Below, in pieces: positions 7,730-62,078 of a stretch of 64,000 bases of DNA. The notes beneath the pieces were generated by a model, which made no database searches, had not been told where the DNA came from, and was given only the letters and a program-made list of their open reading frames with translations. The DNA lies in the NCBI RefSeq assembly GCF_024181725.1, contig NZ_CP028908.1:5569501-5633500 (forward strand), read 5' to 3'. A program made the position numbers and the translations under genes. The first letter of the stretch is position 1, and every line of letters starts with the position of its first letter. Source of the DNA: Bradyrhizobium sp. WD16 (lineage in GTDB: Bacteria; Pseudomonadota; Alphaproteobacteria; Rhizobiales; Xanthobacteraceae).

Positions 7730-7895
7730 CTAGTGTGGCGTCTCGCAATTGCCTATGCCCTTTGCGGCAAGCCCCTGTAGGCAATTGCGAGACATAAGCC
7801 ACACTAGCTTTTTGATTTTGCTAGTGTCCCGATGTCTCCGAATGACCGTGCGAGGGTGAGGCAAACGAAGCGGTAATTCGGAGACGGGACACTAG
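7730..7895. repeat. CTAG-bounded double-hairpin unit, type AB (locus 1)
   Basis: Reference AB unit, 166 bp. Hairpin A is 7730-7807: 10-bp basal stem CTAGTGTGGC/GCCACACTAG, upper stem GTCTCGCAATTGCCTA with its complement, and an ATAA bulge on the 3' arm. The linker 7808-7820 is CTTTTTGATTTTG between CTAG sites. Hairpin B is 7821-7895: basal stem CTAGTGTCCC/GGGACACTAG, GAT bulge on the 5' arm, upper stem GTCTCCGAATnACCG. Both bulges face the linker. Confidence 0.92.
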
Positions 7896-10298: not shown

Positions 10299-10630
10299 CT
10301 AGTGTGGCGTCTCGCAATTGCCTACCGCCTTTGCGGCCGGTCTGTCGTAGGCAATTGCGAGACATAAGCCACACTAGCGCTTTGATTTTGCTAGTGTCCT
10401 TTATGTCTCCGAATTACCGTGCGAGGGTGAGGCAAATGGGGCGGTAATTCGGAGACAGGACACTAGTGTCCCGGTTCGAACGTTCGTATCTCTTTGGCGC
10501 GAGCACTTATGCGAACGTTAGAACCAAAGGGGCACTAGCAATGATCATGATTCTGGTGCAGTTTTGGATCTGACGCTCGTTTGAAGAGCTCGCTGCAATA
10601 CTGATACGAGCGTCAGATCTACCGCACTAG
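10299..10630. repeat. Tandem repeat array AB+CD (locus 2)
   Basis: An AB unit (10299-10466) shares its last CTAG with a CD unit (10463-10630). Both keep full hairpin and linker geometry. The CD linker ends in CTGG instead of CTAG. Hairpin C carries a substitution in both arms relative to other copies (TTCGAACG against CGTTAGAAC). The array fills the gap between the CHAD gene and the convergent phasin-like gene, ending 15 bases from the latter's stop. Confidence 0.9.
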
Positions 10631-12091: not shown

Positions 12092-12324
12092 CGTGCCAGC
12101 GTCCCTTTGTCTCCGAATGACCGTCCGAACGTGCGGCAAATGAAGCGGTCAGGGACACTAGAGTCCTGTCTCCGAATTACCGCCCTATTTGCCTCACCCT
12201 CGCACGGTCATTCGGAGACATAAGGACGCTAGCAAAATCAAAGTGCTAGTGTGGCTTATGTCGCGCAATTGCCTACGAGAGGCTTGCCGCAAAGGCGGTA
12301 GGCAATTGCGAGACGCCACACTAG
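12092..12324. repeat. Degenerate B hairpin plus inverted AB unit (locus 4)
   Basis: A decayed B hairpin (~12092-12161) shares CTAG with an inverted AB unit (12158-12324, 167 bp: B', linker CAAAATCAAAGTG, A'). Just upstream (~12059-12095) are short scraps that look like the starts of hairpins C (CGTTCGTATCCC) and E (TTTCCGAAGTTCGTG), suggesting successive insertions at this spot. Confidence 0.85.
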
Positions 12325-12415: not shown

Positions 12416-13249
12416 ATGCTGAAAGACATTCTTGCGCATATTCCCGCCGACGATCGCGACGGCGGTGTAATCGCTTGTGCCGTGTCCGCGGCACGTCTTT
12501 TCAATGCCCATCTCGACGGCCTGTCGGGCCCCGGCATTTCGGTTCACCCGGCGATCGCGCTCGGCGCCTCCTCTGCAGCGCTGGCGATCACTGCGGAAAA
12601 TGACCCGGCGGTCGCGCGGGCCACGGCGGCGCTCGATCACCTGGAAGCGGCAGCCAAGGCCGCCGAAGTCCGACTGGGCGAACTGACAGTCTGCGACAGC
12701 CCCTATCCGGCCCACCAGCGCATGGCCGAACTTGCCCGCCTGTATGATCTCAACATTCTCGCCCAGCCGGACCGGTCGAGGCCCCGCTCCGGCGACGCTG
12801 TCCTCGAGTCCATCCTGATCCAATCCGGGCGGCCCCTGCTGGTCGTGCCCTATATATTCAAGGGGGCGCTCAAGCTCGATCGCGTCCTGCTGTGCTGGGA
12901 CGGTGGCCGGCGGGCCGCCCGCGCGCTGCATGATTCAATGCCGTTGCTCCAGCGCGCCAAGGCGGTCACCATTGTCACCGTCAACGAGACGCTGCCGGAC
13001 ACCGACCGGCTGTCCTCGACGGCCTTGAGCGAACACCTCGCCCGCGGCGGGATCAATGCATCGGCCTTGCGCATCACCGCGGAAAAGCCTGAAATCCACG
13101 GCGCGATCCTGTCGCTCGCCGCTGATGACGGCGCCGACCTGATCGTCATGGGCGGTTACGACCACTCGCGGCTGCGCGAGCGCGCGTTCGGCGGAGTGAC
13201 TCGGGGCATGCTGGAGACCATGACCGTCCCGGTGTTCATGTCGCACTAG
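12416..13249 (+). CDS. Tandem universal stress protein
   Basis: 277 residues with two Usp folds: the first (~1-140) is diverged, the second (~150-277) ends with GGYDHSRLRERAFGGVTRGML, a UspA nucleotide-loop pattern. The start MLKDILAHIPADD is typical of this family. The TAG stop (13247-13249) lies inside the CTAG that opens repeat array locus 5, so the repeat abuts the last codon. The FixK-like box upstream suggests micro-oxic induction. Confidence 0.88.
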   Translation: MLKDILAHIPADDRDGGVIACAVSAARLFNAHLDGLSGPGISVHPAIALGASSAALAITAENDPAVARATAALDHLEAAAKAAEVRLGELTVCDSPYPAHQRMAELARLYDLNILAQPDRSRPRSGDAVLESILIQSGRPLLVVPYIFKGALKLDRVLLCWDGGRRAARALHDSMPLLQRAKAVTIVTVNETLPDTDRLSSTALSEHLARGGINASALRITAEKPEIHGAILSLAADDGADLIVMGGYDHSRLRERAFGGVTRGMLETMTVPVFMSH

Positions 13250-13575
13250 TGTCCCGTTTCCAACGTTCGTATCCCATTGCAGCAGGCGCTCATACGAACG
13301 TTGGAAACAAGGGGACACTAGCATCGTTATGATTCTAGTTTTGTTTTGGATCTGACGCTCGTTTGAAGAACTCGCTCCAATGCTGAAACGAGCGTCAGAT
13401 CCACCACACTAGTGTGGCGTCTCGCAATTGCCTACCGCCTTTGCGGCCAGTCTCTCGTAGGCAATTGCGAGACATAAGCCGCACTAGCTTTTTGATTTTG
13501 CTAGTGTCCCGATGTCTCCGAATGACCGAGCGAGGGTGAGGCAAACGAAGCGGTAATTCGGAGACAGGACACTAG
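13246..13575. repeat. Tandem repeat array CD+AB (locus 5)
   Basis: A CD unit (13246-13412, 167 bp) shares CTAG with an AB unit (13409-13575). Hairpin C: basal stem CTAGTGTCCC/GGGACACTAG, upper stem GTTTCCAACGTTCGTAT, AAG bulge on the 3' arm. The linker 13322-13334 is CATCGTTATGATT without its boundary CTAGs. Hairpin D: upper stem GGATCTGACGCTCGTTT, bulge on the 5' arm. The array exactly fills the space between two stress genes and ends 18 bases before the next start. Confidence 0.92.
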
Positions 13576-34334: not shown

Positions 34335-34591
34335 CTAGTGTCCCGTCTCCGAATTACCGCTACGTTTGCCTCGCACTCGCACGGTAATTCGGAGACATAG
34401 GGACACTAGCAAAATCAAAGTGCTAGTGTGGCTTATGTCTCGCAATTGCCTACGAGAGGGTTGCCGCGAAGGCGGTAGGCAATTGCGAGACGCCACACTA
34501 GCATCATGATGATTCTAGTGTGGTTTTGGTCTGACGCGCGAACGAAGAACGCGCTCCAATGCTGAAGCGAGCGTGAGATCCACCGCACTCG
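34335..34591. repeat. Inverted AB unit plus D hairpin (locus 6)
   Basis: Inverted AB unit (34335-34501, 167 bp) followed by linker CATCATGATGATT and a decayed D hairpin (to ~34591, closing CTAG changed to CTCG). No C hairpin is present, so the D half has been joined directly to A' through a CTAG. Confidence 0.88.
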
Positions 34592-43004: not shown

Positions 43005-43008
<4 letters not shown>

Positions 43009-43220
43009 TGTGGCGTCTCGCAATTGCCTACCGCCTTTGCGGCAAGCCTCTCGTAGGCAATTGCGAGACATAAGCCACACTGGCACTTTGATTTTGCTAG
43101 TGTCCCTTATGTCTCCGAATGACCGGGCGAGCGTGAGGCAAACAACGCGGTAATTCGGAGACGGGACACTAGTGCGGTGGAGCTGACGCTCGTATCAGCA
43201 TTCGTTAAAACCGGGACACT
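43005..43220. repeat. AB unit plus inverted D remnant (locus 7)
   Basis: AB unit 43005-43173 with one changed internal CTAG (CTGG), followed by the outer arm of an inverted D hairpin (TGCGGTGGAGCTGACGCTCG, to ~43200) and a scrap GGGACACTGG. The opening CTAG supplies the lon stop codon. Confidence 0.88.
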
Positions 43221-43450: not shown

Positions 43451-43540
43451 ATGGCGAAGAAAGCGAAGAAGGCGAAGAAGACGGTAAAGAAGGCTGTGAA
43501 GAAAACAGCCAAGAAGAAAGCCGCCAAGAAGAAGAAGTAA
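43451..43540 (+). CDS. Lysine-rich 29-residue histone-like peptide
   Basis: MAKKAKKAKK followed by alternating TVKKAVKKTA-type repeats: 29 residues, about 60% lysine with Ala, Val and Thr. Start ATG 43451 behind AGAGGA. Such H1-tail-like peptides occur as free small proteins in Bradyrhizobium-type genomes and probably bind nucleic acid; function is inferred. A strong terminator lies ~117 bases downstream. Confidence 0.72.
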   Translation: MAKKAKKAKKTVKKAVKKTAKKKAAKKKK

Positions 43541-43757: not shown

Positions 43758-43830
43758 GGTGTCCCTTTAGTCGCCGAAGGACCCTTCGACCGTGCAGCAA
43801 ATGCAGCGGTCATTCGGAAACAGGGCACTA
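43758..43830. repeat. Degenerate B hairpin interrupted at CTAG by IS630
   Basis: GTGTCCCTTTAGTCGCCGAA...CATTCGGAAACAGGGCACTA: a decayed B hairpin whose closing CTAG received the IS630 insertion. Confidence 0.7.
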
Positions 43831-44882
43831 GAGCAGACTCCGATCAAGGTGGATCATATCCGCATGCGGCGAAGTAGTTTGCGCATTGGGCGGGCTTGAA
43901 GATGTCGGCGCAGGTTTCGAGGGCGCGCATCAGGGCGGCGACGGTTCGCTCGGCGATTTTGCGCAAATGCGCTTTCAGCTTGGAAAACGCCTTCTCGATC
44001 GGGTTCATGTCGGGGCTATAGGGCGGGAGGTAGAGCAGCTCGGCGCCCGCGGCCTCGATCAACTCCTTGACCCGCGGCCCCTTGTGGGCGGACAGATTGT
44101 CCATGACGACAACGTCGCCTTTCGTGAGGGTAGGAACGAGGCAGTGTTCCACCCAGTCCTCGAACAGGGCGGCGGTGATCGGACGATCATAGGTCTTCGC
44201 CGCCACGAGCCCGCGAAGGCGGATGCCGGCGACGAGCGTGACCGTCTTGTAATGGCCGTGCGGCACGCCGACGCGCAACCGCCGTCCGCGCCGGCAACGC
44301 CCACCTTTGCGCGCCAAATTGGTCGAGGCGCCCGTTTCGTCGATGAAGACGAGCTTCTCGGGATCGAGATCGAGCTGTCGCTCGAACCATTCGAGGCGTT
44401 GCTTCAGGACGTCCGGCCGCTGCTGCTCCGAGGCGTGTGCGGTCTTTTTTTAAACGTGACGCCATGACGGTCGAAGAAGCGCCACAGCACGGAACTCGAA
44501 AAATGCTCGCCACAATTCCTGATCAGACGTTCCTGGATCTCCAGCAGGGTGACGTCCGGCGTGCGCCGGATCAGCCCCATCAGGTAGCCGTGATGGGCTT
44601 CGATGCGGCCGGAGCGGCGATCGCCTCCAGTCGACTTCGGCGACATTTCTCCCGTCGTCTCGAATTGCTTGACCCAGCGCACGGCGCTCGCAATGCTGAC
44701 TTCGAAACGCTTCGCCGCCGCATTGCGCGACAGCCCGCCCGAGACGACAGCCTCCACCACTCGTTTGCGAAGATCGTCGGAAAGCGCCATTCCAGCCGCC
44801 TCCATTCTGCGGCAGGAATCATGAATCAGATGTCAGCCGATTCGGGAATCCTGATTCGATTCACATCGCTCGGAGCCTGCTC
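43831..44882 (-). mobile_element. IS630-family insertion sequence
   Basis: About 1052 bp. Ends are imperfect inverted repeats: GAGCAGACTCCGATC on the left and the complement of GAGCAGGCTCCGAGC on the right. Flanked by TA on both sides (43829-43830 and 44883-44884), the IS630 target duplication, within CTAG on each side. Removing one TA and the element rejoins hairpin B to hairpin A at a single CTAG, the normal junction of tandem units, so the insertion is younger than the repeats. Confidence 0.88.
43844..44805 (-). CDS. IS630 transposase in two overlapping frames (-1 frameshift)
   Basis: Frame 1 (44805 to 44404) encodes the helix-turn-helix part (LSRNAAAKRFEVSIASAVRW). Frame 2 (to 43844) encodes the DDE catalytic part: VFIDETGASTN, VVMDNLSAHKG and PYSPDMNPIEKAFSKLK. 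They meet at a run of seven As (44445-44451 on the minus strand): T-TTA-AAA-AAA-G, where a -1 slip joins FKK to KTAHASEQQRP and restores a full ~320-residue transposase. This is a known expression mode in IS630. All three acidic residues are present, so the element may be active. Confidence 0.85.
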
Positions 44883-45047
44883 TAGTGCGGCGTCTCGCAA
44901 TTACCTACCGCCTTTGCGGCAAGCCCCTGTCGGCAATTGCGAGACATAAGCCACACTAGCTTTTTGATTTTGCTAGTGTCCCGATGTCTCCGAATGACCG
45001 TGCGAGGGTGAGGCAAACGAAGCGGTAATTCGGAGACGGGACACTAG
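44882..45047. repeat. AB unit (locus 8)
   Basis: Complete AB unit of 166 bp with a few arm changes in hairpin A (AATTACCTACC). Its left CTAG is the IS630 target; its right CTAG cuts into a MAPEG gene. Confidence 0.9.
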
Positions 45048-50775: not shown

Positions 50776-51106
50776 CTAGTACCCTGTTTCCGAAGTTCGT
50801 GACCTGTTTGCAGCACCCGCCCGTCACGAACTTCGGAAACGAAAGGGTACTAGAATTTAATCTTGCTAGTGGAGTTCAGGATTTGACATTCGCTCTACGA
50901 GCCCGCGTCCAGGCGGGTAGCGAATGTCAAATCCACTCCACTAGTGTGGCGTCTCGCAATTGCCTATGCCCTTCGCGGCAAGCCCCTGTAGGCAATTGCG
51001 AGACATAAGCCGCACTAGCTTTTTGATTTTGCTAGTGTCCGTATGTCTCCGAATTACCGTGCGAGGGTGAGGCAAATGAAGCGGTAATTCGGAGACAGGA
51101 CACTAG
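50776..51106. repeat. Tandem repeat array EF+AB (locus 9)
   Basis: The only EF unit (50776-50944) plus an AB unit (50941-51106). Hairpin E: basal stem CTAGTACCCT, upper stem GTTTCCGAAGTTCGTGAC, GAA bulge on the 3' arm. Linker AATTTAATCTTG. Hairpin F: basal stem CTAGTGGAGT, TCA bulge on the 5' arm, upper stem GGATTTGACATTCGCT. It fills the space between URC1- and URC4-like genes. Confidence 0.92.
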
Positions 51107-60379: not shown

Positions 60380-60662
60380 GCCAGTGTCCCGTCTCCGCAT
60401 GGGACGCTAGTGTCCCGTTTCCAACGTTCGTATTCCTTTGCAGCAGGTGCTCCTACGAACGTTGGAAACAAAGGGACACTAGCATCAATATGATTCTAGT
60501 GCGGTTTTGGATCTGACGCGCGTTTGAAGAACTCGCGGCAATGCTGAAACGAGCGTCAGATCCACCGCACTAGCCAAATCAAAAAACTGGTGCGGCTTAT
60601 GTCTCACAATTGCCTACGGCGGCCGGCCGCAGACAGGCAGGCAATTGCCAGACGCCGCACGC
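60380..60662. repeat. B scrap, CD unit, degenerate inverted A (locus 10)
   Basis: A shortened B hairpin (60380-60410, arms only) shares CTAG with a complete CD unit (60407-60573), followed by CCAAATCAAAAAACTGG (decayed linker) and an inverted A hairpin with several changes to ~60662. No gene lies in 60316-60723. Confidence 0.88.
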
Positions 60663-61911: not shown

Positions 61912-62078
61912 CTAGTGTCCCATTTCCAACGTTCGTATCCCATTGCAGCAGGCCCTTATACGAACGTTGGAAACAAAGGGACACTAGCATCGATATAATT
62001 CTAGTGCGGTTTTGGATCTGACGCTCGTATGAAGAATTCGCTGCAATGCTGAAACAAGCGTCAGATCCACCGCACTAG
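61912..62078. repeat. CD unit (locus 11)
   Basis: Complete 167-bp CD unit between the AtuA fragment and the AtuA-related gene. The CTAG at 62075-62078 supplies the TAG stop of the fragment; the CTAG at 61912 abuts the next ATG. Confidence 0.92.

Follow-up and report, generated by a model that had tools for sequence, protein, structure and literature searches.

Insertion at the dinucleotide TA is established for IS630-type elements, including ISY100 (PMC2170065), and the preference of the IS630 of Shigella sonnei for TA within CTAG was reported by Tenzen and Ohtsubo in 1991 (cited in PMC2170065). Correia elements and RUP are IS630-derived MITEs (PMC2817692). MITEPsy1 of Pseudomonas syringae, an element of 100 nt that inserts at CTAG (or YTAA) and duplicates a 4-nt target, has been caught moving, and its proposed parent is ISPsy2 (marked "IS5?" in a table of the same paper; PMC3189936). 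REPINs and BIMEs, which are connected with RAYT transposases, are inverted hairpin doublets that form arrays and fall into several sequence classes (PMC3116915, PMC2817692). Palindromic repeats are also known as targets: IS elements of the families IS3, IS110, IS4, IS256 and IS5 are concentrated in REP palindromes (Tobes and Pareja 2006, PMC1525189), and the Bru-RS1 and Bru-RS2 palindromes of Brucella are hot spots for IS711, which duplicates TA in YTAR (PMC2266754).

The locus described here lies in a 64,000-nt stretch of the genome of Bradyrhizobium sp. WD16 (the window), and the reading that we favor, with a probability of about 0.85, is that an IS630-family element (group 1) has come to rest in arrays of two-hairpin MITEs which were probably themselves mobilised by IS630 transposases; all evidence is computational. 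With the IS630 of S. sonnei and ISY100 the group-1 element shares an IS630/Tc1-mariner DDE transposase, TIRs, TA duplication and CTAG preference; it is unlike them in using YTAR with CTAG foremost, in its A7 frame junction, and in that small repeats supply most of the sampled CTAGs. The repeats resemble Correia elements and RUP in being small, non-coding and multicopy, with IS630-like ends, but they consist of two complete foldback hairpins with a 13-nt linker, linker-facing bulges and CTAG at four feet. MITEPsy1 is likewise a CTAG MITE, built, however, of one inverted-repeat pair and not of two hairpins. The inverted doublets, arrays and several sequence classes of REPINs and BIMEs all recur here, whereas CTAG feet on both sides, hairpins mostly of 75-79 bp, IS630 (DDE)-like arms and the lack of a Y1 gene beside intact units set the present repeats apart. 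Like the Brucella palindromes, they are alphaproteobacterial palindromic repeats that serve as IS targets. IS711 belongs to the IS5 family. The Brucella case differs in that IS711 is another IS and in that its palindromes are, in the relevant part of PMC2266754, not derived from an IS. The survey of REP targets is similar in placing IS elements in palindromic repeats and differs in that the term IS630 has no occurrence in its text (PMC1525189). The motif CTAG is absent from PMC3733652 (GTAG and CGTC repeats) and from PMC2267715 (stem-loop families), Br-REP1 (PMC5082802) differs in sequence from these repeats, and full-text searches of open-licence PMC papers brought up no account of CTAG-footed two-hairpin elements linked to IS630.

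The IS and its immediate surroundings in the window are made up of the following features (a strand is given where one is assigned):

43758..43831, plus strand: worn B hairpin to the left of the IS, its left foot decayed
43829..43830: left copy of the target TA, inside the CTAG at 43828-43831
43831..44882: group-1 IS630-family element, 1,052 bp, TIR GAGCAGRCTCCGA
43844..44317, minus strand: transposase frame 2, DDE_3 part, 157 aa from TTG
44404..44805, minus strand: transposase frame 1, HTH part, 133 aa
44445..44451, minus strand: A7 run at the frame junction (T7 on the plus strand)
44882..44959: A hairpin on the right side of the IS, with its plain arm facing the joint
44883..44884: right copy of the target TA, inside the CTAG at 44882-44885
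44960..44972: 13-nt linker CTTTTTGATTTTG
44973..45047: B hairpin, which with the A hairpin and the linker makes one two-hairpin element, 44882-45047

The ends of the element read GAGCAGACTCC.../GAGCAGGCTCC..., and its transposase matches DDE_3 at E = 7.6e-28. A genome search recovered 15 full copies of this IS and one 83-bp end fragment. The junction run is A7 in 13 of the full copies and A8 in the other two, in which the HTH and DDE_3 frames form one continuous frame; an in-frame copy (L015) scores 195.5 bits against NCBIfam transpos_IS630 (cut-off 100). The element in the window inserted at the TA of a CTAG common to two hairpin repeats. TA stands on each side of it within CTAG (43829-43830, 44883-44884), as the sequence-only reading had proposed, and excision in silico of the IS with one TA recreates the predicted B|A joint, which aligns with intact arrays at other places in this genome (88-89% over ~220 nt). 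The nested history drawn from this holds as well, the IS being lodged within a repeat joint; the interval assigned to it, 43758-45047, does contain the IS but covers hairpins plus IS, the IS alone occupying 43831-44882.

All 15 full group-1 copies are flanked by TA, with 12 sites reading CTAG and one each TTAG, TTAA and CTAA; at the TTAA and CTAA sites (L012 and L013) the duplication is of 2 bp, not 4. CTAG contexts account for 444 of 10,987 TA dinucleotides (4%) in an 864-kb sample composed of 40 evenly spaced stretches and the window, so that 12 CTAG sites of 15 are not chance. Relative to the number of sites on offer, insertions into CTAG are about five times as frequent as insertions into other YTAR (12 copies for 444 CTAGs, 3 for 586 others), a comparison in which copies come from the genome and site counts from the 864-kb sample. 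The clade to which group 1 belongs targets YTAR, since 56 of the 57 relatives with usable ends lie at such sites (19 CTAG, 18 TTAG, 15 TTAA and 4 CTAA, with one ATAG outside the pattern), against a background of 846 YTAR among 5,741 NTAN in the relatives' loci; 80 relatives had been examined, of which 22 had no clear ends and one stood at a contig edge, and the 57 are partly non-independent, as L089 and L094, and likewise L132 and L136, have the same flanks and some genomes contribute several loci. The general preference for TA in CTAG that the sequence-only reading had named for IS630 is thus upheld in that CTAG comes foremost (12/15) and needs widening in that the overall target is YTAR. With its DDE_3-type transposase, TIRs, TA duplication and CTAG/YTAR preference, group 1 has the marks of the IS630 family. 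One decayed insertion is also present: the 83-bp end fragment (L016, G000:C1:2186777-2186859, G000 being this genome) lies between the CTAG of an A unit and a truncated C unit. Another repeat, AGAGCGTTTTCCCGCGAAGTGGATACCGG..., is found at L003, L007 and L047 (6217-6300) of the same genome, with CTAG at one end; its opening, TA-GAGCGTTTTCC, resembles the TIRs found in some relatives of group 1 (Xanthobacter, L087), and the repeat is a possible MITE of that clade.

The 864-kb sample holds 235 hairpin matches. Hairpin units, counted with their linkers and small margins, take up 2.2% of its bases and carry 305 of its 444 CTAGs; outside them are 38 intergenic and 101 coding CTAGs, as called crudely from longest open frames. 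Because they carry most CTAGs, the repeats are landing sites, and their proposed role as suppliers of such sites is borne out. Could group-1 elements be drawn, beyond CTAG content, to the hairpins themselves, by a cruciform or a bound protein? Of the 12 CTAG insertions of group 1, 11 are at units, where 69% of the sampled CTAGs lie (one-sided p = 0.07); the single TTAG insertion is within a hairpin arm. The excess is, however, not significant; units carry 305 of 343 CTAGs (89%) once coding CTAGs outside units are excluded, and when group 1 is pooled with two further IS630 groups of this genome (group 2, 9/10; group 3, 5/9) the count at units is 25/31 (Fisher p = 0.23). CTAG supply suffices to explain these figures, and a special pull of the hairpins, which we consider unlikely, was rejected. 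The enrichment in repeat CTAGs over other CTAGs that the sequence-only reading had expected was mapped and scored on this basis and did not reach significance, so that, in a narrow sense, the outcome is the one that reading had named as speaking against it.

What, then, are the repeats? The hairpins, mostly of 75-79 bp, fall into five main families (A to E) and some rarer ones, including F. Each hairpin runs from CTAG through an outer stem and an inner stem to a loop, and then back, and in 180 of 198 near-complete units a bulge of 3-4 nt separates outer from inner stem on one arm. CTAG is preserved at both feet in 138 of the 198 and is absent on one or both sides in the remaining 60. Hairpins are chiefly paired across the 13-nt linker (in the sample, A pairs with B in 38 cases, and C with D in 13 and with E in 7), and pairs are joined to further pairs via one common CTAG. 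The bulges are oriented: among 79 linker pairs both bulged arms point toward the linker in 68, with 9 mixed and 2 unclear, and among 34 shared-CTAG joints both plain arms point toward the joint in 20, with 11 mixed and 3 in which an arm is unclear or bulge-less; no joint of the 34 has two bulged arms facing each other. Exceptions to the simplest pattern amount to 11 of the 79 linker pairs, 11 of the 34 joints and, in other genomes, 2 of the 10 pairs found, the bulges of the other 8 pointing to the linker. Pairing and bulge orientation suggest that the moving unit is best read as a two-hairpin element of ~165 bp with plain ends outside. An A-linker-B element of the window folds as two hairpins at -44 kcal/mol (shuffles, -22.3 +/- 3.0). 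A plain-plain joint reads CACTAGTG, an 8-mer that occurs 252 times, versus 128 for a reversed control, and Rfam gave no match in the window at gathering thresholds. Besides the element at 44882-45047, the window contains these (no strand assigned):

7730..7895: A-linker-B element
10299..10466: A-linker-B element, with a CTAG in common with an E-C pair that runs up to 10630
12158..12324: B-linker-A element
13246..13575: D-linker-C and A-linker-B elements with one common CTAG
34335..34501: B-linker-A element
43005..43172: A-linker-B element whose inner A foot has decayed to CTGG and whose first CTAG supplies the lon ORF stop codon
50776..51106: two-hairpin element with an F-type hairpin first (50776-50853), its CTAG common with an A-linker-B element
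60407..60573: D-linker-C element
61912..62078: D-linker-C type element

The lon ORF (TIGR00763, 897 bits) takes its stop TAG from the CTAG foot of the A hairpin at 43005-43008. Between two hairpin arrays, at 43451-43540, there is a very small, lysine-rich ORF (29 aa, MAKKAKKAKKTVKKAVKKTAKKKAAKKKK, read by eye) with no NCBIfam match.

A Pfam DDE_3 search of the genome gave 34 IS630-type matches in three groups, with 15 in group 1, 10 in group 2 and 9 in group 3 (the last count includes a match at 4539171). Group-2 and group-3 copies are all at CTAG (10/10 and 9/9). The ends of group 2 read CTAGTCGCYCG; those of group 3 are CTAGTGTCCTGACTCTCAATTGCC and CTAGTGTTCCGTCTCGCAAATCAG, and its transposase scores 254.2 bits against transpos_IS630 (cut-off 100). 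The nine group-3 copies are 99.9-100% identical and four group-1 copies are identical, which suggests recent activity of both IS. Group 3 adjoins groups 1 and 2 at common CTAGs in this genome (L005/L236, L231/L240), i.e., the IS630 groups nest end to end. Relatives of group 3 at E <= 1e-50 are present in 39 of 296 genomes of the family, this one included. Of 29 relatives' loci listed and examined, 7 gave no clear ends and 22, from 11 genera, did; all 22 are at CTAG, as located by an end-finder that fixed the inner G and C but not the outer C and G, and 19 of them have ends that start with GTG. The ends of one of the 22 (L275) are of the GAGC type, and this locus may represent a further nested repeat.

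The link between the repeats and group 3 comes from the arms. Ten IS ends were compared with 12 hairpin arms, each against 1,000 shuffles (floor, 1/1001), and 5 of the 120 comparisons are at the floor where about 0.1 would be expected, all of them with plain outer arms. These are the left end of group 3 with A (CTAGTGTGGCGTCTCGCAATTGCC) and B (CTAGTGTCCTGTCTCCGAATTACCG), its right end with A, and both ends of a group-3 relative in another genome (G261) with F; the F arms of the 50776-50853 hairpin resemble IS630 elements with CTAGTACC ends in other genomes. The right end of group 3 also approaches B (p = 0.003) and D (p = 0.002), the ends of a relative in G001 approach F (0.004-0.009), and group-2 ends have weak similarity to some B, D and E arms (p 0.005-0.02). 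With the C and E arms no tested IS end is at the floor.

A comparable relation is seen in a genome of another genus, G057, whose arms came from a pattern search of 8 genomes in which 6 matched, the pattern itself selecting arms near IS ends. G057 has 70 arm matches against none for the reversed control (which matched once in G168), and these include one group-3-type IS630, 1,214 bp from arm to arm, together with 22 pairs whose spacing is 164-165 bp. Every one of the 22 combines a GTGTCCCGATTCC-like with a GTGCCCTGAACC-like arm. The commonest GTGCCCTGAACC-like form is nearest the right end of the IS (2 mismatches versus 6), and the commonest GTGTCCCGATTCC-like form is marginally nearest the left end (3 versus 4), a thin assignment. 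A B-hairpin probe, with up to 3 candidates scored per genome, matched in 4 of the 296 family genomes, our own among them: the repeat sequences are narrow in distribution and the architecture is wider. Related hairpins occur in G122, several in each of three loci read, and as one match in G002; neither genome has a group-3 relative at E <= 0.001, so hairpins can occur where a parent is absent. In G122, L167, L171 and L174 hold two-hairpin elements of different sequence classes with the same architecture, again in the absence of a group-3 transposase match.

As MITEs are, the repeats are short, non-coding and present in many copies, and their A, B and F plain arms resemble the ends of autonomous IS630. 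We read them as REPIN-like MITEs of IS630, and infer, with good support, that the hairpin pairs are non-autonomous derivatives moved in trans by group-3-type transposases. The opposite descent, in which the repeats are older and a group-3 IS630 took hairpin arms as its ends, would suit the recent look of the nearly identical group-3 copies and the wear of many repeats (60/198 without CTAG on one or both sides), but ends of this kind look old, clear-ended relatives being spread over 11 genera with 19 of 22 ends beginning GTG; we hold it improbable, and the mobilisation model is unchanged either way. The evidence does not prove in which direction descent ran between IS and repeats.

The pairs nest in one another. 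At L038 (8427-8751), L035 (4267-4596) and L257 (2209-2587) a C-D element stands within the A-side CTAG of an A-linker-B element, in the order A, CTAG, C-linker-D, CTAG, A/B-type linker, B; L257 has a worn right linker foot, and at L038 the C-D linker measures 10 nt. Other nested orders occur as well. Excising C-linker-D with one CTAG leaves an ordinary A-linker-B, hence the outer feet act like a duplicated target, and the target duplication of the repeats is thereby seen within a single genome, from nested copies at three places and intact forms elsewhere. In two genomes of the same genus the orthologous intergenic DNA, as read next to 50776-51106 and behind the lon ORF, is too diverged to yield exact empty sites. 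Because the ends of group 3 and of the repeats start with G, duplication of TA (2 bp) and of CTAG (4 bp) look the same there.

Homologous recombination or slippage among the repeats, many of which are similar, could also build nested arrays, and the joined flanks of the group-2 element at L225 (G000:C1:317888-321343) are indeed found at 100% over 304 nt in their own locus, as would follow from duplication of the array next to the insertion. Such events would not be expected to give nesting that is exact to the base and bounded by CTAG at either side, as seen at three separate places, nor to leave bulged/bulged joints out (0/34), and we judge them quite improbable as the source of the arrays.

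Two inverted hairpins with a short linker, in many copies and in arrays, bring REPINs and BIMEs to mind, and the genome has one Y1_Tnp gene, so that a Y1 (RAYT) transposase might move the hairpins as repeats of the REP/BIME type, with IS630 merely inserting into them. The 1.5 kb read beside that gene contain, however, other repeats and a truncated B hairpin but no intact unit, and three genomes with related hairpins (G122, G261 and G002) have no Y1_Tnp match. The feet are CTAG on both sides, and the A, B and F arms resemble IS630 ends; a tag of the GTAG or CGTC type is lacking, both feet being CTAG in 138 of 198 near-complete hairpins. RAYT was rejected as the mobiliser, and we regard that explanation as very improbable. 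That the group-1 IS made the feet, by inserting and later being lost, is highly improbable. This IS does insert at CTAG, and CTAG stands at either side of it after TA duplication, but its ends, GAGCAGRCTCC, match none of the 12 hairpin arms (best p = 0.108) and it also uses TTAG, TTAA and CTAA, while the feet are so largely CTAG, and group 1 was rejected as the parent of the repeats.

In the mechanism that we propose for the IS630-mobilised MITEs, the plain outer arms of a pair would serve as transposon ends, and the two-hairpin element would go into CTAG at its TA. A bulge of 3-4 nt on the arms that face the linker would prevent use of the inner ends, so that the pair would move as one. Each insertion would leave CTAG on both sides, offering new targets to pairs and to the IS630 elements of the cell; nested CTAG arrays would grow by such self-seeding, and the IS of the window would have fallen into one of them. 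The outer feet alone can be target-derived at insertion, the linker-side feet being internal to the element. The suggestion of the sequence-only reading that the units' CTAG feet came from IS630-type target duplications is therefore well supported for the outer feet of the two-hairpin element and by way of group 3, whose ends resemble the arms; it does not extend to the linker-side feet or to the lineage of the IS in the window. That an IS630 lineage produced REPIN-like, bulge-marked pairs, and that through CTAG-restricted insertion these repeats, their partner IS and further IS630 groups built self-seeding nested arrays in several genera, seems to us somewhat better than an even prospect.

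The IS insertion by itself is textbook; abundant REPIN-like two-hairpin repeats that point to an IS630 (DDE) partner instead of a RAYT are not. Landing site and lander look, from their ends and targets, as if they share one transposition logic, the repeats resembling stripped-down relatives of a second IS of the same family. If the repeats do have such an IS630 partner, two unrelated transposition chemistries gave rise to the two-hairpin form, and the bulges would tell, by a simple and testable rule, which ends are put to use. The CTAG landscape of a genome would then be rewritable by its own small transposons, which here carry 305 of 444 sampled CTAGs, funnelling later insertions into the arrays.
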